Positions 1-28,296 of a stretch of DNA of 28,296 bases are shown here, one piece after another (the stretch's first letter is position 1; each line of letters starts with the position of its first letter). The notes beneath the pieces are model-generated. The model searched no databases, was not told where the DNA came from, and saw only the letters and a program-made list of their open reading frames with translations. Source of the stretch: a virus. A program made the position numbers and the translations under genes. The stretch spans positions 1-28,296 of IMG/VR virus record IMGVR_UViG_3300032285_000096; one strand, written 5' to 3'.

Positions 1-124
1 CGAACCACCATGCGGGTTCGGAAGGTGCTTGTAATTCGCGCTCCAACTGCCATGCTTTACCGCAGCGAATCCAAGATGTTAGCGATGAAAAACTTCTGTG
101 TGCTACTAATGTTTCTTTTTTCAT
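1..124 (-). CDS. N-terminal fragment of a probable PD-(D/E)XK (RecB/Cas4-like) nuclease, cut by the window edge
   Basis: Only the first 41 codons are inside the window, read from an ATG at 124 and open to the left edge. The peptide contains SFSSLTSWIRCGKAWQLER followed by PAWWF. I recognise this as the usual opening of phage RecB/Cas4-like PD-(D/E)XK nucleases: a Ser-rich strand, a Cys in place of the CP motif, an aromatic/Leu helix, then a double-Trp loop before the first catalytic His. The catalytic residues would lie outside the window. Such nucleases usually work in phage DNA recombination or replication. No clear Shine-Dalgarno precedes the ATG. It sits just after a terminator (141-171), so it probably begins a transcription unit separate from the late operon. 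The competing plus-strand frame here looks random. The call rests on motif likeness alone. Confidence 0.55.
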   Translation of the reverse strand, partial: MKKETLVAHRSFSSLTSWIRCGKAWQLERELQAPSEPAWWF

Positions 125-140
125 GGGATAACTGTAGCAC

Positions 141-171
141 AAGAACAAAGGCCCACCCCGTAGGGTGAGCC
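141..171 (-). terminator. Rho-independent terminator with UACG loop
   Basis: Read on the minus strand, GGCTCACCC, loop TACG and GGGTGGGCC form a 9-bp stem with one G-U pair. It is followed by TTTGTTCTTG. The UNCG tetraloop and T-rich tail fit an intrinsic terminator. It lies 25 bases before the nuclease start codon, so it would separate that gene from upstream transcription. Confidence 0.65.
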
Positions 172-217
172 CGTGTCCAGCACTCAAGTAGGTACTTAGG
201 TTTCCCTACTCCAGTTT

Positions 218-234
218 GTTAAGATTGTCTTAAC
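218..234. promoter_or_regulatory. Perfect inverted repeat, operator-like
   Basis: GTTAAGA-TTG-TCTTAAC is an exact 7+7 inverted repeat with a 3-base centre, in non-coding DNA between two terminators. The short centre makes a stable RNA hairpin less likely than a dimeric repressor site. A smaller palindrome, AAGTA-GG-TACTT, lies at 186-197. No regulator gene is visible in the window, so the binding protein is unknown. Confidence 0.4.
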
Positions 235-296
235 GCGTGAAGCATAACAGATGGTTGATTCCGACACGCCGAGACATGCGCTAATGTGGATTCAAC

Positions 297-326
297 TTGA
301 CAAGATTTTGCAACTGGGGTTAAAAT
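297..326 (+). promoter_or_regulatory. Sigma-70-like promoter on the plus strand
   Basis: A perfect -35 box TTGACA (297-302), an 18-base spacer and a -10 box TAAAAT (321-326, 5 of 6 matches) predict a start near 333. It faces right, against the entire gene-bearing strand, toward a hairpin at 353-371 and the terminator at 423-440. A chance match is possible, but it falls in the only long non-coding stretch of the window. Confidence 0.4.
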
Positions 327-352
327 ATGAGCGAAGCGAATTCAATTAACGG

Positions 353-371
353 GGGAGCCTTAAGGGCTCCC
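353..371. other. GC-rich hairpin without U-tract
   Basis: GGGAGCC (353-359) pairs with GGCTCCC (365-371) around a 5-base loop. Neither strand has a T-rich tail after it, so it is not a standard terminator. It would lie inside any transcript from the plus-strand promoter at 297-326, and just beyond the late-operon terminator on the minus strand. Confidence 0.4.
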
Positions 372-404
372 AATGGCGCGGCTATGGTGATAGCGCCTAA
401 TAGT

Positions 405-440
405 AAAACAAAAACAAAAAAAGCGCCCCCGAAGGGGCGC
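405..440 (-). terminator. Strong intrinsic terminator after the lysis genes
   Basis: On the minus strand GCGCCCC-TTCG-GGGGCGC (7-bp stem, UUCG tetraloop) is followed directly by seven Ts, then GTTTTTG and more Ts. This is a textbook Rho-independent terminator. It begins 24 bases after the holin stop codon and should end the late transcript. The plus-strand side has only a weak CTCTCTTGCTATT tail, so any bidirectional action would be weaker. Confidence 0.9.
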
Positions 441-463
441 CTCTCTTGCTATTAAATTATTGT

Positions 464-712
464 TTAGTTTTTAACTGACTCATCTGCTGCTACTAGAGCA
501 TGTGATGGTAGTGGGAATGTATCGCCTGGGTTTACATAGCGGTACACCAATGGCGCTAGTGCAGAGATACCTGCAGCACCAAGTGCTTTAAGTGATGTTG
601 TGTGGTGCATGATGTACTCAGTAAGGACTCCGCCTACAACTACATGGAACCATGCTGATGCTACTGTCCATACCTTTGGTGGTACGTTAATAAGATACTT
701 TTGCTTAGCCAT
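464..712 (-). CDS. Putative holin
   Basis: 82 residues. Two hydrophobic stretches, about residues 13-33 and 42-58, are separated by a short HH-containing linker. The sequence then continues with VYRYVNPGDTF and a polar tail. A 'P-x-x-Y-R-x-x-x-P-x-D-T' ending after the last membrane segment is common in small actinophage holins as I know them. Its start codon shares one base with the stop of the endolysin gene (TAATG) and GGAG lies six bases upstream. The role would be to permeabilise the membrane at the end of infection so that endolysin can act. The gene is the last of the late operon, 24 bases before a strong terminator. The holin call rests on size, hydrophobicity and adjacency to the endolysin. 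Confidence 0.75.
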   Translation of the reverse strand: MAKQKYLINVPPKVWTVASAWFHVVVGGVLTEYIMHHTTSLKALGAAGISALAPLVYRYVNPGDTFPLPSHALVAADESVKN

Positions 713-1209
713 TAATTACTCCATTTCGGTTTGCCGAAACCAACTACGAATACTGGCAAGTGTTTCTTATTGGTCGAACGGTATGCACGAATTCTCTTGC
801 ACACTTCTCCACCATTAGCCTGGCTTCCAGTTGGTTTAGTTTCGGGCACTGTGTTGCCTTCTACTGTAGTTATAGTACCATCACCGTTGTCTTGAATGAC
901 GATGCCGACATGCCCTACACCCTTACCATCAAAGGAAAAGAATACGATATCGCCAGGTGCTGGGGTGGCTGTCTCATGGTTAGCCCATCTGCCAAGGCCC
1001 TGGAATCCTGATACACCTGCTGGTGTATAGACGCAGTTGGGCATCTTCACTACTGGCTTAAGTTGTGCTGCACACCACATGACAAATGAACCGCACCATG
1101 GCTGTCCGTCGTGTCCTGTAAACTTACCATACTTTGTCTTGTTGTCTGGAACCTCAACAGTTCCAATCTCTTTCACAGCAATTGCTAAGAAATCTTGTGC
1201 TTGTGTCAC
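712..1209 (-). CDS. Endolysin, CHAP-type peptidoglycan amidase/endopeptidase
   Basis: 165 residues with a CHAP (NlpC/P60-fold) layout. The catalytic Cys is residue 39 in QPWCGSFVMWC, the catalytic His is residue 100 in GVGHVGIV, and the third polar residue lies in TVEGNT (117-120). PAPGDIVFF (84-91) is the usual strand before the His. The enzyme would cleave peptidoglycan peptide bonds or the amide link. No separate cell-wall-binding domain is obvious; the basic C-terminus may serve. No signal peptide is present, so export needs the holin. The start is GTG and overlaps the preceding stop by four bases (GTGA). The gene stands between the membrane/coiled-coil protein and the holin, a standard lysis cassette. 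Confidence 0.88.
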   Translation of the reverse strand: MTQAQDFLAIAVKEIGTVEVPDNKTKYGKFTGHDGQPWCGSFVMWCAAQLKPVVKMPNCVYTPAGVSGFQGLGRWANHETATPAPGDIVFFSFDGKGVGHVGIVIQDNGDGTITTVEGNTVPETKPTGSQANGGEVCKRIRAYRSTNKKHLPVFVVGFGKPKWSN

Positions 1210-1517
1210 TGCTCCGCCTTTGCTTTCATTACTTCAACATCTACTTTGATTACCTGTTGGTTATCCAGTAACTCTTCTACCTTATTGATGAGGCCAGTCT
1301 TGCCATCGTTGTAGAGTGCGTACTCGATACGAGTAGTGCGCTTATCCATTTCACCCATAAGGTCCATCAATGGCTTGAGTTCTGCTCTGAGTTCATTCAG
1401 ATGAGTCTCGACAGACTTATGTACGCCATGTTGAAACAGGCGCCATAAGCCTAAGCCAGTTGCTGCTACTACGAAAAAGAAGCCATAGATAGTATTGGAC
1501 CAATCAGGTAGAGTCAT
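1206..1517 (-). CDS. Small membrane protein with C-terminal coiled coil (lysis cassette)
   Basis: 103 residues. One hydrophobic segment (about residues 9-28, IYGFFFVVAATGLGLWRLF) is followed by a long charged, heptad-like helix (about 34-100). This resembles XhlA-like or DUF2746-like lysis accessory proteins, which sit at the membrane with a cytoplasmic coiled coil. It immediately precedes the endolysin and overlaps it by four bases, so a role in holin/endolysin function is likely. It could itself be a second holin or an antiholin. Its ATG is preceded only by a weak GGA, 19 bases after the upstream tail gene, so its level may depend on translation of that gene. Confidence 0.6.
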   Translation of the reverse strand: MTLPDWSNTIYGFFFVVAATGLGLWRLFQHGVHKSVETHLNELRAELKPLMDLMGEMDKRTTRIEYALYNDGKTGLINKVEELLDNQQVIKVDVEVMKAKAEQ

Positions 1518-1536
1518 TTGCGGTATTCCCTATGTG

Positions 1537-3753
1537 TTAGACGGTACGGAACTGGGCGATAAGCATTCCACCAAAGCCCTTGAAGCGACGCTCAGGTGGA
1601 GTCATGCGGATAAAGGTAATGCTTTCAATAACTCCACGAATAGTTTCGTTATTGGTAAAGTCCTGCAAGATGACAACATCTCCATTGGACTCAACTGTTT
1701 CAAGGCTAGAGACACGTTCAGATGCACGGCCTTCATAGCCAGTGGTCATGTTGTATCTGTCACCTTCAAAGTCATAACACATAAGTGGAAGGGTGATGAT
1801 GCGCTGACGGCGTACCGCAGGCAAGGCCTTTAACTGGTAGCCGTTAAATGAATCTTCTGTGCCTACTGTCTGCCCTGCTGATGGGTAGAGTGTGAAGCGT
1901 AGGGCGATAGATTCCTTTGGTGTCAAGTCAAACTGGTCAAGGCCAGTGATGTCCTGAGTAAAGTCAAAGTTGTTATCTACTGTAATGATATCTGCAGCAG
2001 CACCGTTAGCATCAACTGATGTCAACTTCAACTTGCCCACCATTGGCAGGGTCTGACGTAACTTAACCAACTCAAAGTGCTTATCTTCAAGGGTGAAGTA
2101 ACGAATCTGTCCTGTCTGTAGGTAGCCAGATGTAACGAGTGTGTTGTTCTGGAAGTAGATACCAGTGGCTGCTGAACCAATTGCCAACTTGTTTGTTGAA
2201 CCAATCATGCAGACTGCAGATGCTTCGTTAGTTGTAGGAATCTGTAGGTGTGTTGCATAACCCATCTGGTTAGGTGCAATTTCCTTGCTCAAGTCAATCT
2301 TGACTAGGCCAGATTTCATTGTGCCGTCACCGTCTGAGTCAATGTAATTTGTGACTGTGCAGTATGCATAACGGTCATTGAATGTGATGGACTTACATGG
2401 CTGACCTGTCAGGGTCAAGCCTGAAGCGGGGTCATAGCCGTTGGTAACTACAGTCAATGGACCATAAGTAATGTAACCAGATGATACGAAGCCTGATGTA
2501 TCAATGGTGCCTACGCGGATACCTTTGTTGGTACCAAAGACCATGTACTTGCCAATGTATGAACCAATGGCATAAATCAATTCACCCTTTGGCATATCGG
2601 CTGCAGTAACTGCCTTGGTTAGGAGTGGGACTGCACCATTTGTATCGAGGGAAAGACGATACACAGTTGATGAATCCCCTGCATAGCCCGCTGTATAAAT
2701 AGCATTTGGACCTTCGCAAATACCAGTCCACTTCCATGTTGTGTTTGGATGAGCATAAATGGGAAGGTTATTGTTAGATGCAAGGACTGCAGTACCTGTC
2801 ATACCAGTTGCATACTGTTGGTCTGTATAGTTGTGGTAGTAAGAAAACTCTGTAGCAGATGGGACTGCAGTTACTGAGAAGGTACCGTTGAATCCAGAAC
2901 TGATAGAAGCAACTGTTACTTGACTACCTACTGCAAAGTTGTGTGCTGTAGAAGTCTTGAGCGTGGCTACGTTGTTTGCCAACTGACCAGCAACTACTGT
3001 GTAAGAAGTAATTGGAGTTACTTCAAAGATGTAGTTATTAACTCCAGCAATAAGGCGTTGCTTGACCCAAGATAGGGCTACGTTGGTAACTGTACCTACT
3101 GCTGCTGGGTGGGTAAATACTGATGTGCCTGATGTTGCACCTGTCAGTGGACCCTTGTAGATACCAGTTGCATTTGCTGCGTAGTAGTTAACGCCATCTT
3201 GCGCAAGGGCTAAGATAGTTCCAGAGCCACCCCATGTAAGAGTAGTCGTAGCATTGGCTGCAGTAGTGCGGTAAAGGTTTGCACCATCTGACCAGATAAC
3301 TACATCTACTCCAGCAGTATCTGTACCGCCAACCATAATCGGTCCGTTAGATGCAGTATGTACTCTAGTTACATCTGGTAGTAGTGTTACTCTACCTACG
3401 TTAAATACTTCTACACCAGCAGACTTGTTAAAGCGGGCTGATACTGTTTGTCCTGATATTGGTTCTTCGTAACGGATACCAGCGCCATAGTCAAAGGTAG
3501 ACTGGCTGCGTAGCCACCAACCTGTAAGTGTCTGCTCGCCTGGTTCCTTCTGTTGGTCAATCTGCTGCTTACGATATTGCGCTGTCTCACGCTTGTAAGG
3601 GTACTGTTGGTTAGGCCCAATGAAGAATGGTAGCCCTGCTACTGCAACGTCATAGTTGTTGCTAGTATTTTCAAATGTATTACCTGAGTTAGATGGTTGT
3701 CCAATTGGTACAACTGGCCTCTCGGCAATATGTGCGTAACCGTCTAGTGCCAC
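1537..3753 (-). CDS. Large tail protein with propeller-like repeats (possible tail tube/nozzle component)
   Basis: 738 residues, rich in Gly, Thr and short beta strands. Repeated WSDGANLYRTT / DGVNYYAANATGIYK / GPNAIYTAGYAG / GSYIGKYMVFGTNKGIRV units look like beta-propeller blades. Around residues 262-330 there is an Ig-like insert with TAHNFAVGSQVTVASIS and FNGTFSVTAVPSATEFSY, a motif I know from many phage tail proteins. In short-tailed phages a protein of this size near the end of the tail genes is usually the tail tube B/nozzle protein; that assignment is inference. The start is GTG with AAGGAG five bases upstream. A strong terminator (3763-3794) stands immediately upstream, so the gene is probably expressed by readthrough. 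It is the last structural gene before lysis. Confidence 0.65.
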   Translation of the reverse strand: MALDGYAHIAERPVVPIGQPSNSGNTFENTSNNYDVAVAGLPFFIGPNQQYPYKRETAQYRKQQIDQQKEPGEQTLTGWWLRSQSTFDYGAGIRYEEPISGQTVSARFNKSAGVEVFNVGRVTLLPDVTRVHTASNGPIMVGGTDTAGVDVVIWSDGANLYRTTAANATTTLTWGGSGTILALAQDGVNYYAANATGIYKGPLTGATSGTSVFTHPAAVGTVTNVALSWVKQRLIAGVNNYIFEVTPITSYTVVAGQLANNVATLKTSTAHNFAVGSQVTVASISSGFNGTFSVTAVPSATEFSYYHNYTDQQYATGMTGTAVLASNNNLPIYAHPNTTWKWTGICEGPNAIYTAGYAGDSSTVYRLSLDTNGAVPLLTKAVTAADMPKGELIYAIGSYIGKYMVFGTNKGIRVGTIDTSGFVSSGYITYGPLTVVTNGYDPASGLTLTGQPCKSITFNDRYAYCTVTNYIDSDGDGTMKSGLVKIDLSKEIAPNQMGYATHLQIPTTNEASAVCMIGSTNKLAIGSAATGIYFQNNTLVTSGYLQTGQIRYFTLEDKHFELVKLRQTLPMVGKLKLTSVDANGAAADIITVDNNFDFTQDITGLDQFDLTPKESIALRFTLYPSAGQTVGTEDSFNGYQLKALPAVRRQRIITLPLMCYDFEGDRYNMTTGYEGRASERVSSLETVESNGDVVILQDFTNNETIRGVIESITFIRMTPPERRFKGFGGMLIAQFRTV

Positions 3754-3762
3754 CTATGCTCC

Positions 3763-3794
3763 TTAAAAGTAAAGGGGGGCAATTAAGCCCCCCT
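3763..3794 (-). terminator. Intrinsic terminator inside the late operon
   Basis: On the minus strand AGGGGGGC-TTAATT-GCCCCCCT gives a perfect 8-bp, nearly all G-C stem with a 6-base loop, followed by TTTACTTTTAA. The T-rich tail overlaps the leader of the 738-residue tail gene and ends at its AAGGAG. I see no promoter between the hairpin and that gene. It therefore looks like an attenuator that lowers expression of the distal tail and lysis genes. Confidence 0.8.
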
Positions 3795-3796
3795 GG

Positions 3797-3877
3797 TTAA
3801 AACAGTATTGATTGTTCCCAATCATCCACAGCATCATCTATGGTGCGTGGTTGGTACTCGGTAATGCAGTCAAGCAT
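3797..3877 (-). CDS. Possible 26-residue ORF
   Basis: ATG at 3877, three bases after the preceding stop codon (TAAGTAATG context), encodes MLDCITEYQPRTIDDAVDDW followed by EQSILF. It stops two bases before the terminator stem. The acidic, non-repetitive composition looks like protein, and the position exactly fills the space between stop codon and terminator. There is no Shine-Dalgarno, so it would depend on coupling to the preceding gene. Function unknown. It could equally be non-coding. Confidence 0.35.
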   Translation of the reverse strand: MLDCITEYQPRTIDDAVDDWEQSILF

Positions 3878-3880
3878 TAC

Positions 3881-4111
3881 TTAGTTAAGCGCAGCGATTT
3901 CGTCTGCTGTTAAACCGAGTGCTGCTAACTTAGCCTCGGCTGAAGCCTTTGCTTCTGCCTTAGCCGCTGCAATAGCATCTTCCTCAGACTTGCGAGTAGC
4001 GGCTTCAATCGCTGCTAGTTCACGTTGCTGGATTTCTTCAGCAGTTAGTGGGCGCTCTGTTACTTCACCTGTAGCGCAGTTAATCTCAACTGCTGTAAGT
4101 GCTTCTGACAT
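3881..4111 (-). CDS. Small Ala/Glu-rich protein, tail region
   Basis: 76 residues from the ATG at 4111, chosen because AAGGAG lies eight bases upstream. An in-frame ATG at 4159 would add 16 residues and overlaps the previous stop (TAATG) but has no Shine-Dalgarno. The N-terminus EALTAVEINCATGEVTERP is followed by LTAEEI, then an Ala/Glu/Lys helix (about 29-65), then LGLTADEIAALN. Short 'INCATGE..ERPLT.EEI' proteins occur near phage tail-fibre genes in my experience and may be fibre-assembly or attachment factors, but no function is established here. It is the last gene before the internal terminator apart from a possible 26-codon ORF. Confidence 0.7.
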   Translation of the reverse strand: MSEALTAVEINCATGEVTERPLTAEEIQQRELAAIEAATRKSEEDAIAAAKAEAKASAEAKLAALGLTADEIAALN

Positions 4112-4158
4112 TGTTGTTTCTCCTTGGTTAGTTGAGGTATTGCGTTTGAATAGACCCA

Positions 4159-4671
4159 TTACGAATTCTTAATTCCGTATAGGGAAAAGGATGAATACTG
4201 CAATAAAGTTCCTTGCGACATAGTTAAAGTAATAGAAGTAATGGCCGAAGTACTACTCCATAGTTCGGCAATTAAAGTTTGCAAGGCAGCAGTTCCGTTA
4301 TTTTCAGTTACTCCATCAATAGCAATAGATTTGTAATTACTGCTTGCATAATTTGGAATATAAAATTCAATGTTGCTAAAGGTATTAGAAGTTGCCGCAG
4401 CATTTGTAGCATATCCAGATGACCCACCAAGATTTCCGCTACCAGCACCAGAACCAATACCATACAAAGTTATATCTGAGGAAAGATTGGAACCACCGTT
4501 AAATGCTAAAGAAAAAGTTGTCCAAGGATTTGTAGTTGAAAAATTACATCTTCCAGATATGACAATTTTTAAGTCTGTATAAGTTCCTGATATAGATGAA
4601 AAAGTCCAGGAAGCCTCACCACCTGAAGCAGTAGTATGACTAGCAATTAATACTTGTGTTGGGTTAGCCAT
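4159..4671 (-). CDS. Tail/receptor-binding domain paralog 1
   Basis: 170 residues making up one copy of a domain that occurs six times in this region. Hallmarks are an opening strand (ASWTFSSISGTYTDLKIVIS), a central Gly/Ser-rich loop, 'NYASSNYKSIAIDG', 'AELWSSTSAITSITL' and a C-terminal 'SSFSLYGIKNS'. It has no signal peptide or membrane segment. The all-beta, Ser/Thr/Gly-rich composition and the position among fibre genes suggest a carbohydrate- or receptor-binding jelly-roll-like fold; this is inference. It starts two bases after the stop of the neighbouring paralog. It is the most divergent copy at the N-terminus and lies farthest downstream in the array. Confidence 0.7.
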   Translation of the reverse strand: MANPTQVLIASHTTASGGEASWTFSSISGTYTDLKIVISGRCNFSTTNPWTTFSLAFNGGSNLSSDITLYGIGSGAGSGNLGGSSGYATNAAATSNTFSNIEFYIPNYASSNYKSIAIDGVTENNGTAALQTLIAELWSSTSAITSITLTMSQGTLLQYSSFSLYGIKNS

Positions 4672-4673
4672 AA

Positions 4674-5195
4674 TTACGCCGCCTTAATTCCGTATAGAGT
4701 GTAAGTATTACCGATTGCAATTGAATTTGTTGTAGGAGCATAAATATCAATGCGTGTAATTGGCGAAGTTGAACGATATAAATAACTAATAAGTCCTACG
4801 TATGGATAAGTAACACTTTCTTGATGAACTATTCCAGATTTGTAAATTGATGATGATGAATAATTCATAATATCAACGCTGTTAAAAGCATAAGTACTTG
4901 TATTAACTTCTGAACCAAAATACCAAGCGTTAGCATTTGAACTGCGAGATGAAGATGCAGTTGAACCATCTCCGCTTAAAATAGTACGAGAGTAAAGTGT
5001 ACTACCTGAAGTATCATTATTAAATCTAAGCATTTCATAATAGTTAGAATCATTTACTGAAGCAACTAATCTTAATCCAGTATAAGTTTGTGGAATAGAA
5101 TTAAAAGTTACTTGGCTTTGAGTAGTTGTTGCTGTGTATGTTGCAATAGGCACCATTGTTGAACCAGCATTAGCGGTTGATGTAGTTACTCCCAT
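4674..5195 (-). CDS. Tail/receptor-binding domain paralog 2
   Basis: 173 residues, one full domain copy. The MGVTTST start, 'VTFNSIPQTYTGLRLVASV', 'IMNYSSSSIYKSGI', 'YLYRSTSPITRIDIY' and the ending 'NTYTLYGIKAA' place it in a subtype with the 6505-7026 gene, which shares start, length and ending. The other copies have 'GLWQST' or 'ELWSST' where this subtype has 'YRST' or 'WRST'. The gene begins one base after the stop codon of the upstream 435-residue gene, so translation is probably coupled. The likely role is a component of, or adaptor in, the host-recognition apparatus, inferred from context. Confidence 0.7.
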   Translation of the reverse strand: MGVTTSTANAGSTMVPIATYTATTTQSQVTFNSIPQTYTGLRLVASVNDSNYYEMLRFNNDTSGSTLYSRTILSGDGSTASSSRSSNANAWYFGSEVNTSTYAFNSVDIMNYSSSSIYKSGIVHQESVTYPYVGLISYLYRSTSPITRIDIYAPTTNSIAIGNTYTLYGIKAA

Positions 5196-5196
5196 A

Positions 5197-6504
5197 TTAG
5201 TTTACTCCGTAAAGTTCAAAGGTTGAGTACTGGGTAAAACTTTTTGCACTATTAGGTGTTAAAGTAATTGAAGTTACAGCAGCAGTAGATTGCCATAATC
5301 CTGAAATAAGTTCTACTGCACCTGAACCATTAGCATCGTATCCATCAAGCGCCCTAAGAGTTTTATATTTATTAGTATTAGAATAATCAGTAATTGATGT
5401 AATATTTGGTGCAAATACATTGGAAATTGCTGGTACTCCCATATCCCAATATAAGCCTAATGAAGCACGGGAAGTTGAAGCAGAACCACCAGCAGCAGAA
5501 CCACTACCATATAGGAAGTGAAGTGCATAATTGTTTCCTGTATCGCCATTAAGTTGCATAAGTATTGCTTCGGCTCCAGTATTTATTTGTGCGTTGCAAC
5601 GAAGTTCTAGATGCTTGTATCCTTGCGGAATATTACTAAAGGTAACACTAGAAGCACCACTAGCATCAACAGTTGCAGTAGCAATAGCAACAAAGTCACC
5701 AGCAACGGTAACGCTGTTAGATGCAGAACTTGCAGTACCTGGGCCATAAGCAAAGTTATATGGCTTGACGGTAAAGGTGTAGGCAGTACCTGTTGTTAAA
5801 CCAGTTACGGTTAGCGGTGAGGTTGTGCCTGTTGCTGTCAATCCGCCTGGGCTTGATGTGGCTACGTAGTAACTTGCATCAGTTCCTGAGTAGGTAAACG
5901 GTACGTTAGCCGAAGTGTTACCTGATGAGTAGGCAGTACCGATTGTGGTTGTACCTGCTGGGGCTGCGGTTGCAGGTTGGTTGGAGATGCCGTACAACTC
6001 AAAGGTTGAGTACTGGACAGCATTTTGTCCACCAAAATAAATTGTTATTGAAGTAATAGGGGCAGTGTTATTCCAAATGCCAGCATCAAAACCTGCATTA
6101 GCAGAAGTTGAATTATCTTCGCCTACCCAATCGCTTGACAATGGCTTGTAATTAGAATTTGTATAATTTGGAATAGTGTAGTTAAAAGATGAAAAAGTAT
6201 TAGCAGTATTACCAGCAGTGTCTAATCCGCCATAACCATTTAATGGCATAAAAGTTGCAGTTGAATTACTGCTTGAACTTGCAGCGCTTCCATTGCCAGA
6301 AATCCAAAGAGCAGGATAAGCATTTGCACTTGAATCTCCGTTAAAACGAATAAATGCACCAGCATTATTTGCTGTTGCGTTATCGCTTCTAAAAGAACCT
6401 TTAATAATTAAATCAGTATAAGTTTGATTAACATTGCTAAAAGTCACAGATGCAACGCCGCCAGCACCTACGGTATAGGAATCAAGTAATTTGTAAGTTG
6501 CCAT
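5197..6504 (-). CDS. Two-domain tail protein: two paralogous domains joined by an FN3-like linker
   Basis: 435 residues. Residues about 1-172 form one copy of the repeated domain ('VTFSNVNQTYTDLIIKGSF' ... 'STFELYGISN'). Residues about 175-265 look like a fibronectin type III or Ig-like module ('GTTSPLTVTGLTTGTAYTF', 'VKPYN'). Residues about 267-435 are a second copy ('VTFSNIPQGYKHLELRCNA' ... 'STFELYGVN'). The second copy is closest to the 188-residue gene at 7027-7593 ('YKHLQIR', 'SGLWQST'). A fusion of two receptor-binding-like domains on a flexible FN3 linker would suit a branched or elongated fibre tip. The start codon lies directly after the stop of the upstream paralog (TAAATG). Confidence 0.72.
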   Translation of the reverse strand: MATYKLLDSYTVGAGGVASVTFSNVNQTYTDLIIKGSFRSDNATANNAGAFIRFNGDSSANAYPALWISGNGSAASSSSNSTATFMPLNGYGGLDTAGNTANTFSSFNYTIPNYTNSNYKPLSSDWVGEDNSTSANAGFDAGIWNNTAPITSITIYFGGQNAVQYSTFELYGISNQPATAAPAGTTTIGTAYSSGNTSANVPFTYSGTDASYYVATSSPGGLTATGTTSPLTVTGLTTGTAYTFTVKPYNFAYGPGTASSASNSVTVAGDFVAIATATVDASGASSVTFSNIPQGYKHLELRCNAQINTGAEAILMQLNGDTGNNYALHFLYGSGSAAGGSASTSRASLGLYWDMGVPAISNVFAPNITSITDYSNTNKYKTLRALDGYDANGSGAVELISGLWQSTAAVTSITLTPNSAKSFTQYSTFELYGVN

Positions 6505-8991: not shown

Positions 8992-9000
8992 TGGCCGTCC

Positions 9001-10223: not shown

Positions 10224-10245
10224 CGGGTATCCTTTCTAAATTGAA

Positions 10246-10362
10246 TTACTTAGTTCCGCCAACGCCTTCGTATTCACCGTATGGTGATTTTGTAGGCTTG
10301 CCTGATAGTTTGTCGTTTATTTTGCCAACTGAGTTAGCATTGCAACCACATTCAACGCACAT
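10246..10362 (-). CDS. 38-residue Cys-rich small protein
   Basis: ATG at 10362, with AAAGGA seven bases upstream, encodes a peptide starting MCVECGCNANSVGKINDK and ending in YGEYEGVGGTK. Three Cys (residues 2, 5 and 7) at the very start suggest metal binding. Very short proteins starting MC-x-x-CGC are common in actinophage structural operons as I know them. Its start lies one base after the stop of the 54-residue gene (TAATATG). It is too short for routine gene finding. Function unknown. Confidence 0.65.
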   Translation of the reverse strand: MCVECGCNANSVGKINDKLSGKPTKSPYGEYEGVGGTK

Positions 10363-10363
10363 A

Positions 10364-12037: not shown

Positions 12038-12049
12038 TGCGCAATTGTA

Positions 12050-13626
<1,577 letters not shown>

Positions 13627-19012: not shown

Positions 19013-19014
19013 TA

Positions 19015-22000: not shown

Positions 22001-23598
22001 TCATCATTAGGTAAGCCAGCAGCCTTAAACATTTCAGAAATAAGACTTGAATAAACATCTTTTTTCTCACCTAAATTGCCAAGCATAAATTCCGTAGTCT
22101 TTTGACGAGCCATTTGGTCTGACAATGAGAAGCGTGCAATACGATAAATAGATACAGCAGACGCTGGGTCAGATGGGTCAAACTTGGTATTAGAAAGTTC
22201 TAGTGTTTTGCTATCAATTGTGTATGGTAGATAGCCAGAGAAGGTACGAGTCTTGCCAGCAATGGCAGACTTCCAAGCATCTCCACTAAATGGACGTAGT
22301 GCAACTGGAAGAATTGTTTGCATTTGTCCAGTTTTGACAACTTGACCTGCTTCATCAATAACTAATTGCTCTGCCTTACGAGGCAAGAAGAAATTTGCTT
22401 GATTTCCGCGTAGGTATAGTTCATCATTAGCATCCCATTGACGCAACTTATCTGCAGCCTTGGAAGCAGCAGCACGAAGTACAGTTCTATTAGGAACCAT
22501 TGAAGCACCGTTGATTGAGAAGTTCTTCATCATCTCAGTATCGTGAGTTGTAGACAAGAAAACTTTGTGTAAATCATCGGTTGTTACTTTGCCTAATGGC
22601 TTTGTAAAGTATTGAACCATACCTTGTAGGCCAGGATACTTTAGAGCAACATCCATAGATGCTAACTCTGGAGTCTTGGCTTCATTAAGAATGTTCTTGA
22701 TGTCTTCTAGTGCACGAACATAACGCTTACCGCTATTACCAGTTAAAACATCACCAAGGCTTGGGTTCTTTCCAGCCTGATATAGTGAGTCTAGTTGGTC
22801 TGGTGAGTAAATCTTTAGGCTGTTACGCTCAAAGAAACCTTGTGTCGCAGCGCCAAGGCTACGAAATGGGCCCTTGAGGGTAGTAATTACTTTGCCATCT
22901 TCAGTCGTTAGGTACTTACCTTGCTGAATGGATGAGCGTGCTTTGAATCCTACGTTAAGTGGGTCAAAGTTAAAGTCAAATGCTATGTCAGCAGTGCCAG
23001 AGATAACTTTACCTAAACCTTTATCGGTATTACGTAAGTCACCCATACCTGGAACTTGTGAAAGAGCATTAGCAAAATCGCGGCCAAATGAAACTTTGTA
23101 ATTTGCGTTGTTAGAGTCGTTAACAGAATCTCTAAATGAAGAACCGAAGCGAGTCAAGAGATTGCGCTCAATAGATGCGGCAATGTCTGCTCCAGCAACG
23201 GCTCCTTCTGGGCCTAGTAGTGAGCCAATTGCTCCACCACCTACGACACCAGCGGTTGCCATAAAACCATTAAATATACCGTGACGTGCATATACAGAGT
23301 GAATGAACTTATAGTCACGTTGAACTTCTTGTAGAGGCTTTGCAAGCCAAGCAAGGCTATTTGTTACAACTTTTGCGGCGCCACCAAATACACGTTGCCA
23401 TATATTTTCAGAACCATTTTCTGCTTGGTGGTCCTGAAGTGATTGTTGTAAAGCCATACCGTTTGATGCGTGAGAAAGCGCAGTAGCAGCAGAACCTGGG
23501 TCTGACGAGTTAAGTGCATCGCCAACAAGTGCTGGAGAGTTAACTAGGTGTGGATTGTCAGCAAGTGTTTGGTTAAGATTATTAACACTACCTGCCAT
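19015..23598 (-). CDS. Very large (1527-residue) probable internal virion/ejection protein
   Basis: The longest gene in the window. Near the N-terminus lies a Gly/Ala-rich hydrophobic stretch (about 109-141, 'GFMATAGVVGGGAIGSLLG'), suited to membrane insertion. Long charged helical regions follow. Around residue 1024 is 'ARNYLPFYFAQEQAMRRAGS', then 'GFVETDSSGAKHITLPLIGE'; I know comparable 'PF-x-FAQ-x-Q-x-x-RR' segments from large proteins of actinophage structural clusters. No lysozyme, transglycosylase or polymerase motif is evident to me. Position between portal and scaffold and length (compare T7 gp16, about 1300 residues) favour a protein stored in the head and ejected with DNA; this is inference. 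The ATG overlaps the previous stop by one base. Confidence 0.65.
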   Translation of the reverse strand: MAGSVNNLNQTLADNPHLVNSPALVGDALNSSDPGSAATALSHASNGMALQQSLQDHQAENGSENIWQRVFGGAAKVVTNSLAWLAKPLQEVQRDYKFIHSVYARHGIFNGFMATAGVVGGGAIGSLLGPEGAVAGADIAASIERNLLTRFGSSFRDSVNDSNNANYKVSFGRDFANALSQVPGMGDLRNTDKGLGKVISGTADIAFDFNFDPLNVGFKARSSIQQGKYLTTEDGKVITTLKGPFRSLGAATQGFFERNSLKIYSPDQLDSLYQAGKNPSLGDVLTGNSGKRYVRALEDIKNILNEAKTPELASMDVALKYPGLQGMVQYFTKPLGKVTTDDLHKVFLSTTHDTEMMKNFSINGASMVPNRTVLRAAASKAADKLRQWDANDELYLRGNQANFFLPRKAEQLVIDEAGQVVKTGQMQTILPVALRPFSGDAWKSAIAGKTRTFSGYLPYTIDSKTLELSNTKFDPSDPASAVSIYRIARFSLSDQMARQKTTEFMLGNLGEKKDVYSSLISEMFKAAGLPNDEEFAKTIMDKSAQMVHRSLKSTDYGPGYVSNEGASQVALNGRTTTQGAFLDQRGMFSMPDFRVVKGAMRDLGTYGKLYGRIDDFAARYTDGIFKPLALLTGGFGLRIAASEMIPAIFRFGSMDIAKSKVAGAAAKMNYKLAAGEDEAIIENALHAVHNGTDPAEYLANAAADVSGKKIRKTVAKGLNKLASEEDLDLAARIAIATRGHMASGATFTGYGIPAEQKEFYRQLTDIMGQNSKRRIPVKTGEYSHFEKSNPKFDLNYHVELSKSATTESRKTIVADALAELKNGATADEAWEVARLKDEARIRKVEYDEASPTKMGKPVKFDPYADERKTMAGYVNETPESFSARRMDIMRNLFTGDTADTVNLKFMEDIAKGKKIPLDKIKSLEESYRPKAVAGQDYEWMPGPNLTQRITNFGFEKVIDPIINNLSRQPLFFNHVKNEMKSLQYALDKGFISEEEATRIAMTRASYAMVPQIHNTALKTQFAVLARNYLPFYFAQEQAMRRAGSLIATNPEAFRKFQLIQQGINNPGFVETDSSGAKHITLPLIGELGASFLNAASALGMPVVGGLPVNVTGNLESLKTVLPEMNVPGISPFVSIAANTLGAIDPTLDREIKKITGGAGFSKSMFDQLMPNAIARTVYHAIDAKETESSFFNATIAALASAGYHGKVPAADASPIEKQAFIDRIKNNAKSIMIMKALVGAISPLSPAVSQEDPGLRDEFYKLLKTVSPATGKLMTYPEAIDKFITEHGTGAISYTVARSEGAVPGATMPYTNEAINWIESNKDLLYSPQAVGAAFLVPQTPSLSGDAQAIHDEVIKMHLRANKTPESFLASYYTAAGNNFIAAQRAEHDKAMKTLADAGQSQQAERAQWSAFVNAYGQSNPIWWDDYSSTKKTHLAEQAMADFQQMFSGKDSQGKPVKIPTGEQADAIKGLMNDWVEHNSAVVQYRAAGASEAVKAEKDAWTNYLKDRVSQDGRLNTVVNSVFARLG

Positions 23599-24050
23599 TA
23601 GTACACCTGGTTAATACGCTGTGCTAAGAATCTTGCTGCTGGGGAAGCATCTGGATGTGCAGCATATGCTTGCAATCCTTCTTTAACTGTTTGATATTGT
23701 GTAATATCAGGGGCACCAAGGTTTAATGCTTCTGGACCTGGGCCTGCTCCAAGAGCAGCACCTGAAGATACGGGCTCAAAAGGCTTTTGTGTATCTGCTG
23801 TCAGAGGCGTTACCGCAGGTTGAACAGTTTGTCCATCTCCTGCTGTTGGTGTTAATGGAAGTGCTGGAGTTGCGGGTGCTGCAGCCATTGGTGCTCCACC
23901 TTGAATATCCATAACTTGTTGTCCATCTCCATAATTAGGCATACCTGAGATATACCGTTGTGCTTGCTTTGATGCAATTCCGCCATCGGTTCTTGTGCTA
24001 TTAGCACCTGGGAGTGAAGGTGTTGTTGCTGGCTTTTTTGGGGCTGGCAT
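23598..24050 (-). CDS. Pro/Ala/Thr-rich low-complexity protein
   Basis: 150 residues from the ATG at 24050, which has AAGGAG seven bases upstream. A GTG two codons earlier would be only one base from that site and is less likely. Most of the chain is Pro/Ala/Gly/Thr-rich and disordered ('PAPKKPATTPSLPGANS', 'PATPALPLTPTAGDGQTVQP'). The last 35 residues form an ordered helix pair ('TVKEGLQAYAAHPDASPAAR', 'FLAQRINQVY'). Such a layout suits a flexible tether in the head or portal region. The family is unknown. It precedes the 1527-residue gene with a TAATG overlap. Confidence 0.65.
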   Translation of the reverse strand: MPAPKKPATTPSLPGANSTRTDGGIASKQAQRYISGMPNYGDGQQVMDIQGGAPMAAAPATPALPLTPTAGDGQTVQPAVTPLTADTQKPFEPVSSGAALGAGPGPEALNLGAPDITQYQTVKEGLQAYAAHPDASPAARFLAQRINQVY

Positions 24051-24052
24051 TG

Positions 24053-24274
24053 TCACTCTCCTTCTTTTAATGTCTCAATGGTTCGGGCTGCATACTCGTG
24101 GAACGATTTTTTGTCATCCACGAAACTTGCTTGCGTATCTAACATATGTGTTAGAACCGTAAAAAAATTTGTTATTACTGCAAAAATATCTGATACTGAA
24201 TCGGAAAGCAGAGCGAAAAAATCCCAGGCATTTATAGTGCGTGGGGGAATCTCGCTCTGCTCGTCGTTATTCAA
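24053..24274 (-). CDS. Small amphipathic/hydrophobic protein, TTG start
   Basis: 73 residues from a TTG at 24274. 'INAWDFFALLSDSVSDIFAV' and 'ITNFFTVLTHMLDTQASFVD' form a long hydrophobic or amphipathic helix (about 14-48). A charged tail follows ('KKSFHEYAARTIETLKEGE'). It is in the same frame as the preceding 68-residue gene, separated only by TAA CAA, and there is no good Shine-Dalgarno. It may be made by reinitiation or readthrough. The family is unknown. The composition is protein-like and the stop overlaps the next gene's leader, so I regard it as real. Confidence 0.55.
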   Translation of the reverse strand: MNNDEQSEIPPRTINAWDFFALLSDSVSDIFAVITNFFTVLTHMLDTQASFVDDKKSFHEYAARTIETLKEGE

Positions 24275-24277
24275 TTG

Positions 24278-24484
24278 TTACTTCATTGGCTTTCCAGCAG
24301 TAGTGCCTGAGCCTTTTGTTCCTGAAGGTTGCTTTGTGTAAAGAACTGAAGATGCACCTGGCTTAGAAGCGCCAGCCTTTGACTGAATACCAGTCTTTTG
24401 TGTTGTTGCATCAGATGAACCGTGTCCACCTTGATTCTTTGGTGAAGGAACCTTTGTTGTCAATGATGACTTAAGTGTTGCCAT
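24278..24484 (-). CDS. Small basic Ser/Thr/Gly/Lys-rich protein
   Basis: 68 residues, low complexity and basic throughout ('MATLKSSLTTKVPSPKNQGG', 'SGTKGSGTTAGKPMK'). AGGAG lies seven bases before the ATG. It is likely disordered and may bind DNA or act as a tether near the portal. No known family. It is the first gene after the portal gene (44 bases downstream) and ends two codons in frame before the 73-residue gene. Confidence 0.6.
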   Translation of the reverse strand: MATLKSSLTTKVPSPKNQGGHGSSDATTQKTGIQSKAGASKPGASSVLYTKQPSGTKGSGTTAGKPMK

Positions 24485-24528
24485 TGTTATTCTCCTATAG
24501 GGATTAGTTTACGACAAGCAAAACGCGT

Positions 24529-26319
24529 TTATATTGCTTGCCTTCTGGAAACTGATGCCGCTAATTGCGGTGCTCCAGAAGAATTGATTCCTGCTAAGAG
24601 ATTCTGTAAAGCAGAACCTTGTGGTTGTCCACCAGCAGGCATTGTTGCGCCACCTTGCGGTGCGCCAGCAGGGCCCCCTGAAGGAACCTGACCTGGGGCC
24701 TGTGCCTCACCAGCGGCTGCAACTTCAGGGGAAACTTCAGGAGCAAATGCTTCCGCGATAACATCTTCAATGTTATTGCCAGCCATACGGCCTTTGATTG
24801 CATCTGCTATTGAGTTGATAATCTTAGTTGGGTCCTGACCTTGCGAAGCAAGTTGAGGAATCGCCTGTGCGTAAGAAGCAACTGCGGACACTAAAGCGTC
24901 ACGTAGTCCTTCTACTTCAACACGTTCTTCTTCTTGTGTTACATTCATTTCCCAAGGCATTTGACGACGTAGGAAATCACGAGAAATAAGTTTATCACCA
25001 CGAGCCTGAAGCCCGAAGATTAGTGCGCGGTTTGGGTCAAGTCCAGCCATCATACCGTATGAAACATCACACCAGTAATCGCCTTGGATGTCCTTGCTAG
25101 GGATGTAGTTAATTTCGTAAGGAGCACCAGCGTTAACGCCACGTACTTCCTTCTCAACATCACCAAATAGTTCTTCATCCATCTTAAAACATAGACGCAT
25201 TACGTGACGGAAAACTTCAGCAAATACTGCTTGTGCAGTTTTAACTTGAGTATCAAATCCACCCATCAGTGCTTCTACACCACGGCCTGTGACGATAGAA
25301 CCTGATTGCTGTCCTAGGCGTCCTTGAGGATAACGTGAACCAACACGTAGTTCCTGGTCAAGAAGCGCAGACTCTTGGAAGATTCCGTTAGGAATATCTA
25401 GACCAACGCGACGAATCTTCTCTGGATTAGCAGAACGGATTGTTGCATCTGGTCCGATTTCAAGTACGTTAACATCTGAAGGTAGAGCGAAAGGAGCCTG
25501 TACAGACTTCTGTGCTGCTTCTAGTTGTAGTGTTGCAAAGCGTGAGCGTGCAACCTGAACCCACATAATGTCATCAAATTGACCACGTTGGTTCTCATCA
25601 GAATCAAGTCCTGGGCGTACAGCAATAACTACTGGGATTTCACCAATGAAGTTCTTAGCACGGTCAAGGATAAGGTTTTTGCGTTCTGGAACGAATAGGA
25701 TAACTTCGTCTTTGTCTTGATAGCGGAATACTTCAAGTACACGCTCAGAGTTGCGATTTTCATATTGGCCACGGATGTTGCCTTCGTACTCAGGGTATTC
25801 GTTACATAATTCGCGTACAGTCTTTTGGTAGCGGCGTGTGTAGGAAAGCAACTTGCCGAACCTATCCCATTCAGGATAAGCACCAATTGGGTTGTCCATA
25901 CGAATCATTGGACGATTGTTTTCAAAGTCTGGCTCAATTACAAATGCTAGCATTCCGTAGGTTAAATAACGGTCAGCACCTGTGTACATCTGAGTTTGAA
26001 GGTTACAGGTATCGCGGTAACCAGCAGCAATCATTGTGCGCTTGTCAGCCTTCTTGCGAGCACGGTCAGAGATAGCATCTGTTGTGTCGCAGTTGAATGC
26101 TGGTAGTGGAGCGATAACTTCTGCTACGTCGCGGGCAGCGATGTCAATAAAGTTAGCCACCATTGGCTTAGGAAAGTCTGATGAGAATAGTTCTGGGAAT
26201 ACTTGTTGGATGTTACCTTGACGAATTGAAAGCAGGTCAGCCCAGCGGGCATCACGAAGGTGGTAATGGTCCCGCAGTTTGCGGACCTTTACTCCTAAGT
26301 CATCTATATCCATTGCCAT
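24529..26319 (-). CDS. Portal protein
   Basis: 596 residues from the ATG at 26319, chosen because GGAGGA lies seven bases upstream. Two earlier in-frame ATGs exist, at 26334 and 26364. The body has the mixed portal pattern: 'FPKPMVANFIDIAARDVAEV' near the N-terminus, 'NPIGAYPEWDRFGKLLSYTR', 'VIAVRPGLDSDENQRGQFDD', a helical stem-like region ('SRFATLQLEAAQKSVQAPFA'), and the 'GSRYPQGRLGQQSGSIVTGR' loop. The C-terminus (about 535-596) is Pro/Gly/Ala/Gln-rich and probably disordered. It follows the terminase gene with a 20-base overlap, the standard packaging order. The ring forms the DNA channel at one capsid vertex and docks the terminase. Confidence 0.87.
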   Translation of the reverse strand: MAMDIDDLGVKVRKLRDHYHLRDARWADLLSIRQGNIQQVFPELFSSDFPKPMVANFIDIAARDVAEVIAPLPAFNCDTTDAISDRARKKADKRTMIAAGYRDTCNLQTQMYTGADRYLTYGMLAFVIEPDFENNRPMIRMDNPIGAYPEWDRFGKLLSYTRRYQKTVRELCNEYPEYEGNIRGQYENRNSERVLEVFRYQDKDEVILFVPERKNLILDRAKNFIGEIPVVIAVRPGLDSDENQRGQFDDIMWVQVARSRFATLQLEAAQKSVQAPFALPSDVNVLEIGPDATIRSANPEKIRRVGLDIPNGIFQESALLDQELRVGSRYPQGRLGQQSGSIVTGRGVEALMGGFDTQVKTAQAVFAEVFRHVMRLCFKMDEELFGDVEKEVRGVNAGAPYEINYIPSKDIQGDYWCDVSYGMMAGLDPNRALIFGLQARGDKLISRDFLRRQMPWEMNVTQEEERVEVEGLRDALVSAVASYAQAIPQLASQGQDPTKIINSIADAIKGRMAGNNIEDVIAEAFAPEVSPEVAAAGEAQAPGQVPSGGPAGAPQGGATMPAGGQPQGSALQNLLAGINSSGAPQLAASVSRRQAI

Positions 26320-28237
26320 ACCAGGTTCCTCCATTAGCAGCCAACTCCTCTTGGAGTTTTGCATATTCTTCTAAGTTAACAACTCTGCGCTTGGCAAGTT
26401 GTCCCTTTGTTACGAATGGGTTCTTTACAAAAGAACCACCGTATGCGCCTATCTGATTGATGTAGTCGCGCATCTGTGTCTCTGCAAACCAAAGAGCCAT
26501 AGGTCCGTCTTGCTTACCTTTGGTTCCAGCAGACCACGTAATCAATTGCTCAATGAGAGCCTTGATGTGTTCGTTATCGGCACGAGGAAACTCCAGTAGG
26601 TTTGAACCTTTTATATGTTTGCCTTGGTTGTCCACCGTGCCGAAAAGCGGTGCCATAGATGCGACACCGAACTCGGCATCCATCTTGTTTGAACCCGTAT
26701 AGTGTTGAACTAATCGGATTCCGCGTGTGGCTAAAAATTTGTTTATTTGTTCGTCTTGAGTCAAGAACAACTGGAAAGCGTTCTTTTCAATTACCCAGAC
26801 CTTAGGCTTATACTTCTCAGTCCAACTGAAGATAAGTTCACGAATCATTGCTGGGGTAGGAGCAGGCATTCTTGATGCCTCTAGCAAATAACGCTTTTGG
26901 GTAGTTCTATCACCAGCGATGATGACAGAGAATGTATCACCTGACATAGCAGGGTCCATAGAGGCTACGATGTATTGGTCATTAAGTTGAGCAGGCTGTC
27001 CTGGCGCTCCAGGAATCAATGGACCTATTGGCCTCATACCTGAAACAGAACCGCGTACACATTCAGGAGCGAAGATGGCAGTTGATTCAACATCTTGCTG
27101 TTGGTAAACCATAGCCCAAGTCTTTGGGTCTAAAACACCGCGACGCTTCTTAAGGTTGATGCCATCCCAGCGAGGATATAAACCATTCTCATCAGGCTCA
27201 GTGTCATCACCATTCCAAGGACGGTCAGACATTGGCCAAAGAGTGTGCCAGTCTTTTGCTTCATCTGCAAACTCAAGGACTGCTGGCATAGCCAAGTAAG
27301 TCCAAGGCGAGACGTTATCTGGGTAACGGTCTGGGTTACGCATCTCGCGGTACATATCAACTGGGTCAACTCGCGTACCAACTACAAGGATTTTACCTGT
27401 AGGGCCAACACGAGTTAAGACTTCCTGTTGAATCCAGCGAATCTGCTTTTCATACTCGTTAGAATTTGAGAGAGTAACACAGTCGTCCAAAATAATGAGG
27501 TCCGCACGTGCGCCGTAGATTTGGCCACCAATACCCAGAGCCTGAAGTGTAGGGTCTTTTTCCCCTGAGTCGCGTTCAATATAGATAGCGTCTTGCGTCC
27601 ACTTTTCGGCAGTAGCCTTAAATCCTTCAACAGGTGCATATCGTCTTTGTAACTCAGCCCACTGAGGCGATGTAAGACGTTGCTTGACTGCATAGAGGAA
27701 CTCCTTAGCCATCTGCTGGGTCTTAGACACCAACTTGATACGGACGTTTGGGTCTGTGACGATGCGATAAGTCACATAGTCAATTGAGACTGTCATAGAC
27801 TTGGCGTGCTCGGGAGGCATATTGCAAAGGACGTAGTTCTTGAAGCCCTTTTCGTAAATCATATTTGGATGGAGCCAAGCAGGCTCTCCAGCCTCAAGGA
27901 GAGAAATTATGTTTCTCTGATGAGGGAAGGTCTTAGAGTCCAGGTACTTAGCCCGAAAGTCTTCAAAGGAAATATCTTTATCTTCGTCAGATACCTTGCC
28001 AGCACGTTTCTTGATAACGCGTGCTAAGTCAATCGCTTCCTTGAATTGTGGGTCAGAGGCGCGGTAGTACTCATAAGACTTGACTGATTTGCCAACAGCG
28101 CGGCAAGCGTCCTCAACTGTCACGCCTTCTTCAATCAGCGCGAGAAGGCGTTTCTTGGCATCTGGGGCGGACAAGGTAGCACCTGGGGCTAACTTGTACG
28201 AACCGCGGTCAGTTACCTCGCTGAGTTTCTTTGCCAA
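26300..28237 (-). CDS. terL: Terminase large subunit (packaging ATPase and nuclease)
   Basis: 645 residues from a TTG with AAAGGA seven bases upstream; no in-frame ATG fits. Residues about 31-76 look like a helix-turn-helix ('EEGVTVEDACRAVGKSVKSY'). The ATPase has Walker A PPEHAKS (141-147), with Ala where Gly is usual, Walker B LIILDD (247-252) and coupling motif VVGTR (285-289). The RNase H-like nuclease has Asp428 (SMDPAMSGD), Glu484 (WVIEKNAF) and a third acidic residue probably at Asp577 (GKQDGPMALWF). The protein pumps DNA into the procapsid through the portal and cuts the concatemer. No separate small subunit is visible; it may lie upstream, beyond the window. Confidence 0.92.
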   Translation of the reverse strand: MAKKLSEVTDRGSYKLAPGATLSAPDAKKRLLALIEEGVTVEDACRAVGKSVKSYEYYRASDPQFKEAIDLARVIKKRAGKVSDEDKDISFEDFRAKYLDSKTFPHQRNIISLLEAGEPAWLHPNMIYEKGFKNYVLCNMPPEHAKSMTVSIDYVTYRIVTDPNVRIKLVSKTQQMAKEFLYAVKQRLTSPQWAELQRRYAPVEGFKATAEKWTQDAIYIERDSGEKDPTLQALGIGGQIYGARADLIILDDCVTLSNSNEYEKQIRWIQQEVLTRVGPTGKILVVGTRVDPVDMYREMRNPDRYPDNVSPWTYLAMPAVLEFADEAKDWHTLWPMSDRPWNGDDTEPDENGLYPRWDGINLKKRRGVLDPKTWAMVYQQQDVESTAIFAPECVRGSVSGMRPIGPLIPGAPGQPAQLNDQYIVASMDPAMSGDTFSVIIAGDRTTQKRYLLEASRMPAPTPAMIRELIFSWTEKYKPKVWVIEKNAFQLFLTQDEQINKFLATRGIRLVQHYTGSNKMDAEFGVASMAPLFGTVDNQGKHIKGSNLLEFPRADNEHIKALIEQLITWSAGTKGKQDGPMALWFAETQMRDYINQIGAYGGSFVKNPFVTKGQLAKRRVVNLEEYAKLQEELAANGGTWYGNGYR

Positions 28238-28296
28238 TGGGTAATCCTTTAGTGGGGCGGCCCCCTAGGGGCGCAACTGGGTTATGGTATGGGGGC
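28238..28296. other. Leader of the terminase gene at the window edge
   Basis: 59 bases to the right edge. They hold the terminase ribosome site (AAAGGA on the minus strand) and the palindrome CCCCTAGGGG (28262-28271) inside a GC-rich run. No T-run follows on either strand, so it is not a clear terminator. A minus-strand frame remains open through the region and could be the end of an upstream gene, but there is too little to judge. Confidence 0.5.

Follow-up and report, generated by a model that had tools for sequence, protein, structure and literature searches.

Loss of several palindromic four-base words from a phage genome, probably under changing restriction by freshwater actinobacterial hosts

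We analyzed a 28,296-nucleotide stretch of viral DNA (IMG/VR virus record IMGVR_UViG_3300032285_000096; the whole stretch is hereafter called the window), which represents the structural half of a phage, and found that the palindromic words GATC, AGCT, and CCGG do not occur in it at all. Expected counts were obtained from a second-order Markov model and from 1,000 synonymous-codon shuffles, in which proteins and codon usage were kept (29 genes, 26,661 coding bases). The Markov model expects 77.0, 149.6, and 31.7 sites for GATC, AGCT, and CCGG, respectively, while the shuffles gave means of 86.9, 170.9, and 43.3, and the lowest single shuffle still contained 66, 138, and 29 sites. Since these minima lie far above zero, neither chance nor codon use accounts for the zeros. 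The original prediction, made from the letters alone, had reported the three absences; the exact counts confirm it, leaving neither a handful of overlooked sites nor an effect of codon use, and the effect is genuine and exceeds what was stated there. It had also listed other palindromes as present, which holds for GGCC, GCGC, CGCG, CTAG, GTAC, and TGCA (0.70 to 0.96 of the Markov expectation) but not fully for TCGA, which is depleted as well (4 versus 30.4 expected by the Markov model). CATG, which it had omitted, is also depleted (21 versus 102.4). A scan of the window for other 4-mers, 5-mers, and palindromic 6-mers yielded none at the same cut as the three absent words, and the nonpalindromic 4- and 5-mers include no word of similar behavior. 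The avoided palindromic words are specificities of type II restriction enzymes.

The leftover sites of the two depleted words are clustered in the first 3,744 bases, which hold 20 of the 21 CATG sites (binomial P = 5e-17) and all four TCGA sites (P = 3e-4). From 3745 to 28296, CATG was found once where 77.8 sites are expected, and TCGA was not found at all versus 25.3 expected; this part is without 5 of the 16 palindromic tetramers, save for one CATG at 11989. The window's first block is 89.96% identical at the DNA level to G001, a relative of the window; over the terminase-portal DNA, identity to that genome is just 79.1%, and positions 16303 to 28260 are 99.98% identical to locus L082. L082 avoids all five words (CATG 0 versus 40 expected, TCGA 0 versus 13 expected). 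G001 as a whole avoids GATC, AGCT, and CCGG while retaining CATG and TCGA, and its longest CATG-free stretch, 25466 to 30273, stops just before the homologue of the window's first block. The block boundaries in the window and in G001 coincide with the identity jump. Because sequence identity and avoidance profile both change there, we placed the boundary near position 3,744, and this comparison suggests that 1 to 3744 is probably an imported, recombinant block carrying the word set of the nearest relative, G001. A similar block was seen in G008, the first 5.4 kb of which hold 13 of its 14 AGCT and 4 of its 5 CCGG sites. A further block with its own avoidance history is present in G007, where 7.8 kb (18680 to 26474) are free of TGCA, although 140 TGCA sites lie elsewhere in that genome.

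Word loss was then counted in relatives of the capsid and of the terminase (the best 80 matches each; some loci of both sets share a contig). Among the capsid relatives, GATC has an exact zero in 30 of 80 scorable loci, AGCT in 25 of 80, CCGG in 41 of 75, TCGA in 22 of 67, and CATG in 5 of 80; GATC, AGCT, and CCGG are missing together from 20 of the 80 capsid relatives and from 17 of the 80 terminase relatives. Complete or near-complete relatives show exact zeros over 33 to 40 kb, in different sets, and some have half-depleted words in addition. The set comprises GATC, AGCT, and CCGG in G001 and AGCT, CATG, CCGG, CGCG, and TCGA in G012, and it is reduced to GATC in G004, TCGA in G007, and CCGG in G010; the isolates LanE43-AprF5 and LanE43-AprE7 lack AGCT, CATG, CCGG, GATC, and GGCC over their whole genomes of 39 kb. 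Two contigs are without seven words at no more than a tenth of expectation, L610 and, if GTAC is counted, L592. At the other end, rows L145 to L147 of the terminase tree avoid none of the five words, and WRightOn, which infects Streptomyces, shows no such depletion. The minimum number of state changes on a terminase tree of 91 rows (78 of them different; states at 0.1 to 0.5 of expectation and expectations below 6 not counted; G017 had no usable terminase) is 3 for GATC, 6 for AGCT, 9 for CCGG, 8 for TCGA, and 5 for CATG. These data indicated that the words, nearly all of which are palindromes in the relatives too, come and go lineage by lineage, each in its own pattern. The recount in relatives proposed with the original prediction thus found the zeros again, but in a set particular to each lineage and in some lineages not at all. 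Two loci with very close terminases, L108 and L114, illustrate the contrast: L108 has no ACGT (27 expected) and keeps CCGG, and L114 has 6 ACGT and 2 CCGG versus 25 expected, a difference that points to recent switching or recombination.

The nearest named relatives of the window are the Planktophila phages LanE43-AprF5 and LanE43-AprE7, followed by Streptomyces phages, with homologous capsid and terminase. The host of the two isolates is given as "Ca. Planktophila landstejnensis" LanE-43 (PMC10202952), and G001 encodes WhiB (E = 1.4e-14) and sigma70_r4 (E = 4e-11) in a region that the window stops short of. On these grounds, the window most likely comes from a phage of freshwater Actinobacteriota, "Ca. 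Nanopelagicales" (acI). It is probably lytic. A capsid relative was sought in a bacterial genome collection, and none was found.

We consider it probable, though well short of certain, that shifting restriction pressure from acI hosts has cleared the genome of this phage of target sites for several type II restriction enzymes. Restriction is favored by the palindromic nature of the words, their turnover between lineages, the imported block with the nearest relative's set, and the restriction genes in the host order described below. We infer that these sites are cut in a host of the phage itself or of its near ancestors and that it is the loss of the sites that enables the phage to grow. Phage populations would encounter many acI strains, each with few or no restriction systems, but differing ones. 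Unmodified phage DNA would be endangered by even a handful of sites, so that loss would proceed until none is left; words would be lost and regained as the encountered hosts change. Recombination would shuffle blocks of different histories between phages, and such an exchange would leave three words missing everywhere and five in all but the first 3.7 kb. The genomes may record which defenses each lineage survived.

Words might in general terms also go missing through biased base composition or codon use or as an artifact of the library or the assembly, and the low CCGG expectations in this group make some short loci uninformative. The codon shuffles of the window, however, speak against a bias, relatives with similar proteins and base composition show normal counts, contigs of the same sample differ in profile (L033, L057, and L090 of 3300032284), and cultured, sequenced isolates show the same word loss. 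We therefore rejected such origins, which are extremely improbable.

The original prediction had attributed the losses to hosts with enzymes of MboI/DpnII, AluI, and HpaII specificity. Among 296 genomes of the host order, methyltransferases over the cutoff were found for PF00145 (C5) in 46, for PF02086 in 10, and for PF01555 in 24, and an HpaII endonuclease was found in 2; EcoO109I-, EcoRV-, NotI-, and BglII-like endonucleases adjoin methyltransferases there. One C5 class of about 420 amino acids (aa) makes up 7 of the 31 loci fetched and is not the commonest. A member shares 189 of 395 residues (48%) with a Mesomycoplasma methyltransferase that adjoins two genes annotated MutH/Sau3AI and Sau3AI family, including 47 of 133 within the stretch 200 to 340, which is taken to hold the target-recognition part. 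Both of the neighboring genes tested for this class match BglII endonuclease, but only one of these matches exceeds the cutoff; the other lies below it. In seven hosts of the Sau3AI-like class (four assigned by score only), GATC stands at 0.59 to 0.77 of expectation, versus 0.69 to 0.96 in 12 others (one-sided P = 0.0017, or P = 0.03 with the three verified hosts; relatedness was not controlled). Eight later-sampled hosts of other classes, outside this test, lie at 0.77 to 0.96, and AGCT is low in some hosts of mixed classes. Words for the remaining host systems were sought via PADLOC, NCBIfam, and solved structures, and none were obtained. Host restriction thus fits best among the causes considered, with the HpaII genes and the Sau3AI-like class in its favor, but the enzymes named in the prediction were recovered only in part.

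Several results weigh against host restriction. A DpnII-type endonuclease was found in 0 of the 296 genomes, no AGCT system was identified in the host order, no word was assigned to the largest C5 class (9 of the 31 loci), and an Exiguobacterium relative of the Sau3AI-like class has no Sau3AI neighbor. A published methylome survey reports no methylated motif and no methyltransferase in three hgcI-clade draft genomes, all of them incomplete (PMC6329791). In loci selected for a lysis-type gene that the Planktophila phages carry, avoidance is near universal within one large clade (GATC 75 of 80, AGCT 80 of 80, CCGG 67 of 67 scorable), whereas matching host genes are rare. LanE-43 itself has no gene of PF00145, PF01555, or PF02086 (type I and other methyltransferase families were not searched), and in a 200-kb sample its site counts are ordinary (AGCT 1.07, CATG 0.83, CCGG 0.94, GATC 0.93, and GGCC 0.94 of expectation). 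Finally, the losses of GATC and CATG track phage genes, as set out below. Restriction enzymes in LanE-43 are mentioned in PMC10202952 by reference to its supplement. Since its site counts are ordinary, the phages of LanE-43 do not copy their host's vocabulary, and since the three families are missing as well, other or past hosts must be invoked. The idea that absent words serve as a simple host-matching fingerprint therefore fails for this pair, and the proposed search of hosts for methylases, productive in 46 of 296 genomes for the C5 family, found none of the three families in the one cultured host examined. The mismatch suggests that the record is one of a host community and not of a single strain.

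The same mismatch, an isolate host without the methyltransferases searched and phages that lack five words, could be accommodated if the words were avoided for a reason other than restriction, for example, because host methylation or repair makes the sites costly in phage DNA. The word set, however, varies between close relatives and consists of palindromes nearly throughout, and we know of no single repair process that acts on all avoided words; we regard such a cause as quite improbable.

A more serious contender, though still an unlikely one, is that small site-specific nucleases encoded by the phages attack host or competing phage DNA and that the phages have purged their own sites for self-protection. 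A phage-encoded cause had been touched in the original prediction only as an unknown system, and it stays a rival at that same low probability. A variable cassette lies after the Toprim primase in these phages and offers two candidates: for GATC, phrog_13596, of about 125 aa, and for CATG, a predicted PD-(D/E)XK protein of 127 to 131 aa. Among the best 80 of 164 matches to phrog_13596, 78 loci avoid GATC (exact zeros in 76). Of the same loci, 23 of 80 do contain AGCT, and 27 of the 68 that are scorable for CCGG contain that word. The two exceptions, L510 and L516, have every GATC in the part of the contig far from the gene. CATG is avoided in 64 of 64 loci carrying the second gene. To compare carriers and noncarriers, 205 contigs were reduced to 145 by removing rows with the same primase and the same state (states at 0.1 to 0.3 of expectation and expectations below 6 not counted). 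GATC is avoided in 70 of 70 phrog_13596 carriers, among which L510 and L516 are not counter-cases, versus 63 of 74 noncarriers, and CATG in 61 of 61 second-gene carriers versus 11 of 81 noncarriers. In a scan of 127 gene clusters (those on 8 to 130 contigs) against eight motifs, no clusters other than these two passed the chosen cut for GATC or for CATG. For phrog_13596, AGCT, CCGG, and TCGA showed no link of this kind. In plain counts, the second gene goes together with GGCC as well (43 of 52 versus 7 of 68) and slightly with GATC and AGCT, but the GGCC link disappears in independent pairs. Both proteins have invariant residues (E4, D28, E39, and K41 in the second; E19, E33, and K35 in phrog_13596). 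The model of the CATG-associated protein (pLDDT 89.9) has the helix-strand order of the core and matches Hjc resolvases (Foldseek E = 2e-4; Z = 11.9; root mean square deviation 2.8 over 104 residues) and, at lower scores, DpnI and PvuII; the protein is thus a predicted PD-(D/E)XK nuclease nearest to Hjc resolvases. Its fold and catalytic residues agree with PD-(D/E)XK nucleases as a group (Hjc resolvases, DpnI, PvuII, and I-Ssp6803I); the GATC-associated protein has a weaker match.

Other data argue against these nucleases as the cause. The contig set was gathered partly by searching for these two genes. The 63 contigs that avoid GATC without phrog_13596 and the 11 that avoid CATG without the second gene would need another cause. 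AGCT and CCGG have only weak cluster matches, to lysis-type or unknown genes, and TCGA has none. Second-gene carriers avoid GATC and AGCT equally (64 of 64 each), so that much of the pattern is shared by the clade. The primase tree offers only a small number of independent pairs, which taken alone are not significant (GATC, 3 in the same and 0 in the opposite direction of 7; CATG, about 2.7 and 0 of 4). Of 62 full records, 30 contain phrog_13596; several genomes that avoid GATC do not, among them the two Planktophila phages. The second protein comes closest in structure to a structure-specific resolvase rather than to a restriction enzyme, and the phrog_13596 model (pLDDT 80.3) has only a weak best match, the homing endonuclease I-Ssp6803I (E = 0.078). 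A fuller version, in which a replaceable cassette of PD-(D/E)XK nucleases, each specific for one 4-bp palindrome, destroys host or rival DNA while the cognate sites are deleted instead of methylated, appears slightly less probable again. If it were true, self would be marked by absent words, gene content would predict genome vocabulary, and vocabulary would limit recombination between phages with different cassettes. A published phage using a PD-(D/E)XK enzyme with its own sites purged did not turn up in open-licence literature listings. To our knowledge, self/nonself distinction by a cassette nuclease together with word absence would be a principle known in no phage.

Sharp GATC boundaries were observed in L516, whose first GATC lies at 12014, and in L510, whose last lies at 5363; L516, with two similar tail-type genes on the contig, may be an assembly chimera. 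Two further phage genes were considered and set aside. The M15-type peptidase-like phrog_32486, initially tied to AGCT and CATG loss, adjoins a small holin-like gene and was taken as hitchhiking, and subfamilies of RusA-like genes do not account for AGCT or CCGG loss. In 30 phage records, PF02086 and PF01555 had no match over the cutoff (one weak match lay below), and PF00145 was not run on these records. C5 methyltransferase-like phage genes were seen in G005 (10990 to 12023; PF00145, 9e-54), G007 (15861 to 17142), G009 (20133 to 20792), and G011; those of G007 and G009 sit inside the cassette, and the window does not include the early region.

Avoidance of restriction sites is a known strategy and not new in kind. 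According to the available portion of Rusinov et al. (2018, PMC6286503), orthodox type II sites are lost in DNA phages, and elimination is complete or almost complete in about one-tenth of viral genomes. The loss described here is of that kind and differs in that several words are lost together (three over the whole window, five over most of it, up to seven in relatives), in combinatorial sets within one family and in differing blocks within one genome, and in that a known host is without the families searched. The Planktophila phages LanE43-AprE7 and LanE43-AprF5 (OX376640 and OX376641) resemble the window in their terminase (47% identical), capsid (about 60% over 90% of the length, for AprF5), and GC content (near 45%) and in lacking AGCT, CATG, CCGG, and GATC; unlike it, they have lost GGCC and kept TCGA. 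For these phages, an ArdA-like protein and glycosyltransferases are discussed as means of antirestriction, and not site avoidance, in the available portion of Kavagutti et al. (2023, PMC10202952), which also describes acI genomes as streamlined and without CRISPR-Cas. The Streptomyces phages of Beephvirinae (Manuelvirus, e.g., WRightOn, NC_048684) share the capsid (53%), the terminase (43%), the helicase, and the primase, but show no palindrome depletion like that of the window. No description of stacked word loss, within-family turnover, mosaic blocks, or cultured-host mismatch was found for these phages in searches of an open-licence library.

The acI Actinobacteria are abundant in freshwaters worldwide, and their defenses are little known. 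The different sets of missing words in each family member are a possible record of restriction pressure that could be read from sequence alone; it could predict which systems uncultured hosts carry, place host switches in temporal order, and reveal recombinant blocks with no need for an alignment.

The features of the window are listed in Table 1; its main genes lie on the minus strand.

Table 1. Blocks and main genes of the window
Feature	Coordinates	Strand	Description
Whole window	1..28296		Free of GATC, AGCT, and CCGG: 0/0/0 vs 77/150/32 (Markov) and 87/171/43 (codon shuffle, coding part)
Five-word-avoiding block	3745..28296		Also TCGA 0 and CATG 1 (at 11989)
Probably imported block	1..3744		CATG 20, TCGA 4; GATC, AGCT, and CCGG zero
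738-aa gene, phrog_11667	1537..3753	-	Function unknown; the probably imported block stops at its 5' end
Glycosyltransferase-like gene	10967..12037	-	phrog_13126, E = 1.3e-77; contains the lone CATG (11989) of the five-word-avoiding block
Tail fiber/collagen-like protein	12050..13285	-	Several PHROG tail fiber families, best E = 9.6e-49
Major capsid protein	13953..14990	-	phrog_1357, E = 7.3e-75
Portal protein	24529..26364	-	phrog_104, E = 1.6e-26
Large terminase subunit	26300..28237	-	phrog_38, E = 1.4e-65; basis of the family tree

Among hosts, TTAA stands at 0.11 to 0.40 of expectation in acI-order genomes with a 294-aa N6/N4 methyltransferase (loci L331 to L332, L359 to L361, and L363 to L366; genomes G268, G270, G242, G262, and G219), versus 0.82 to 1.10 in the other sampled hosts, and these counts suggest an active TTAA system there.

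Within the window, AGCA (z = 10.5) and CATC (z = 9.0) are the most overrepresented tetramers, and a single base separates each of them from a word that is lost or depleted; this would fit site erasure by single changes, but it is partly an arithmetic result of the zeros, and we do not rely on it. The leftover AGCT, CCGG, and GATC sites of half-depleted relatives (G003, G005, G007, G011, G015, G017, L054, L056, and L058) tend to be evenly spaced, a pattern that is suggestive in 8 genomes and weak in 28 loci, some of which share contigs (mean z of -0.69 below 0.45 of expectation and 0.06 at 0.45 to 0.6; short gaps 108 versus 114 and 218 versus 231). Longer or nonpalindromic words are avoided in some relatives as well. 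GANNTC (0 of 97 expected) and GANNCC (1 of 187) are nearly absent from G010 (L182 and L183), and the same was seen in L077, L078, L081, and G005; we know of no restriction specificity that fits these interrupted, partly nonpalindromic words. The nonpalindromic CCTCC is also avoided in some relatives, and GWGCWC is absent or nearly so in G003, G004, G007, G008, G012, and G016 to G018 (0 to 3 sites versus 21 to 41 expected by base composition).

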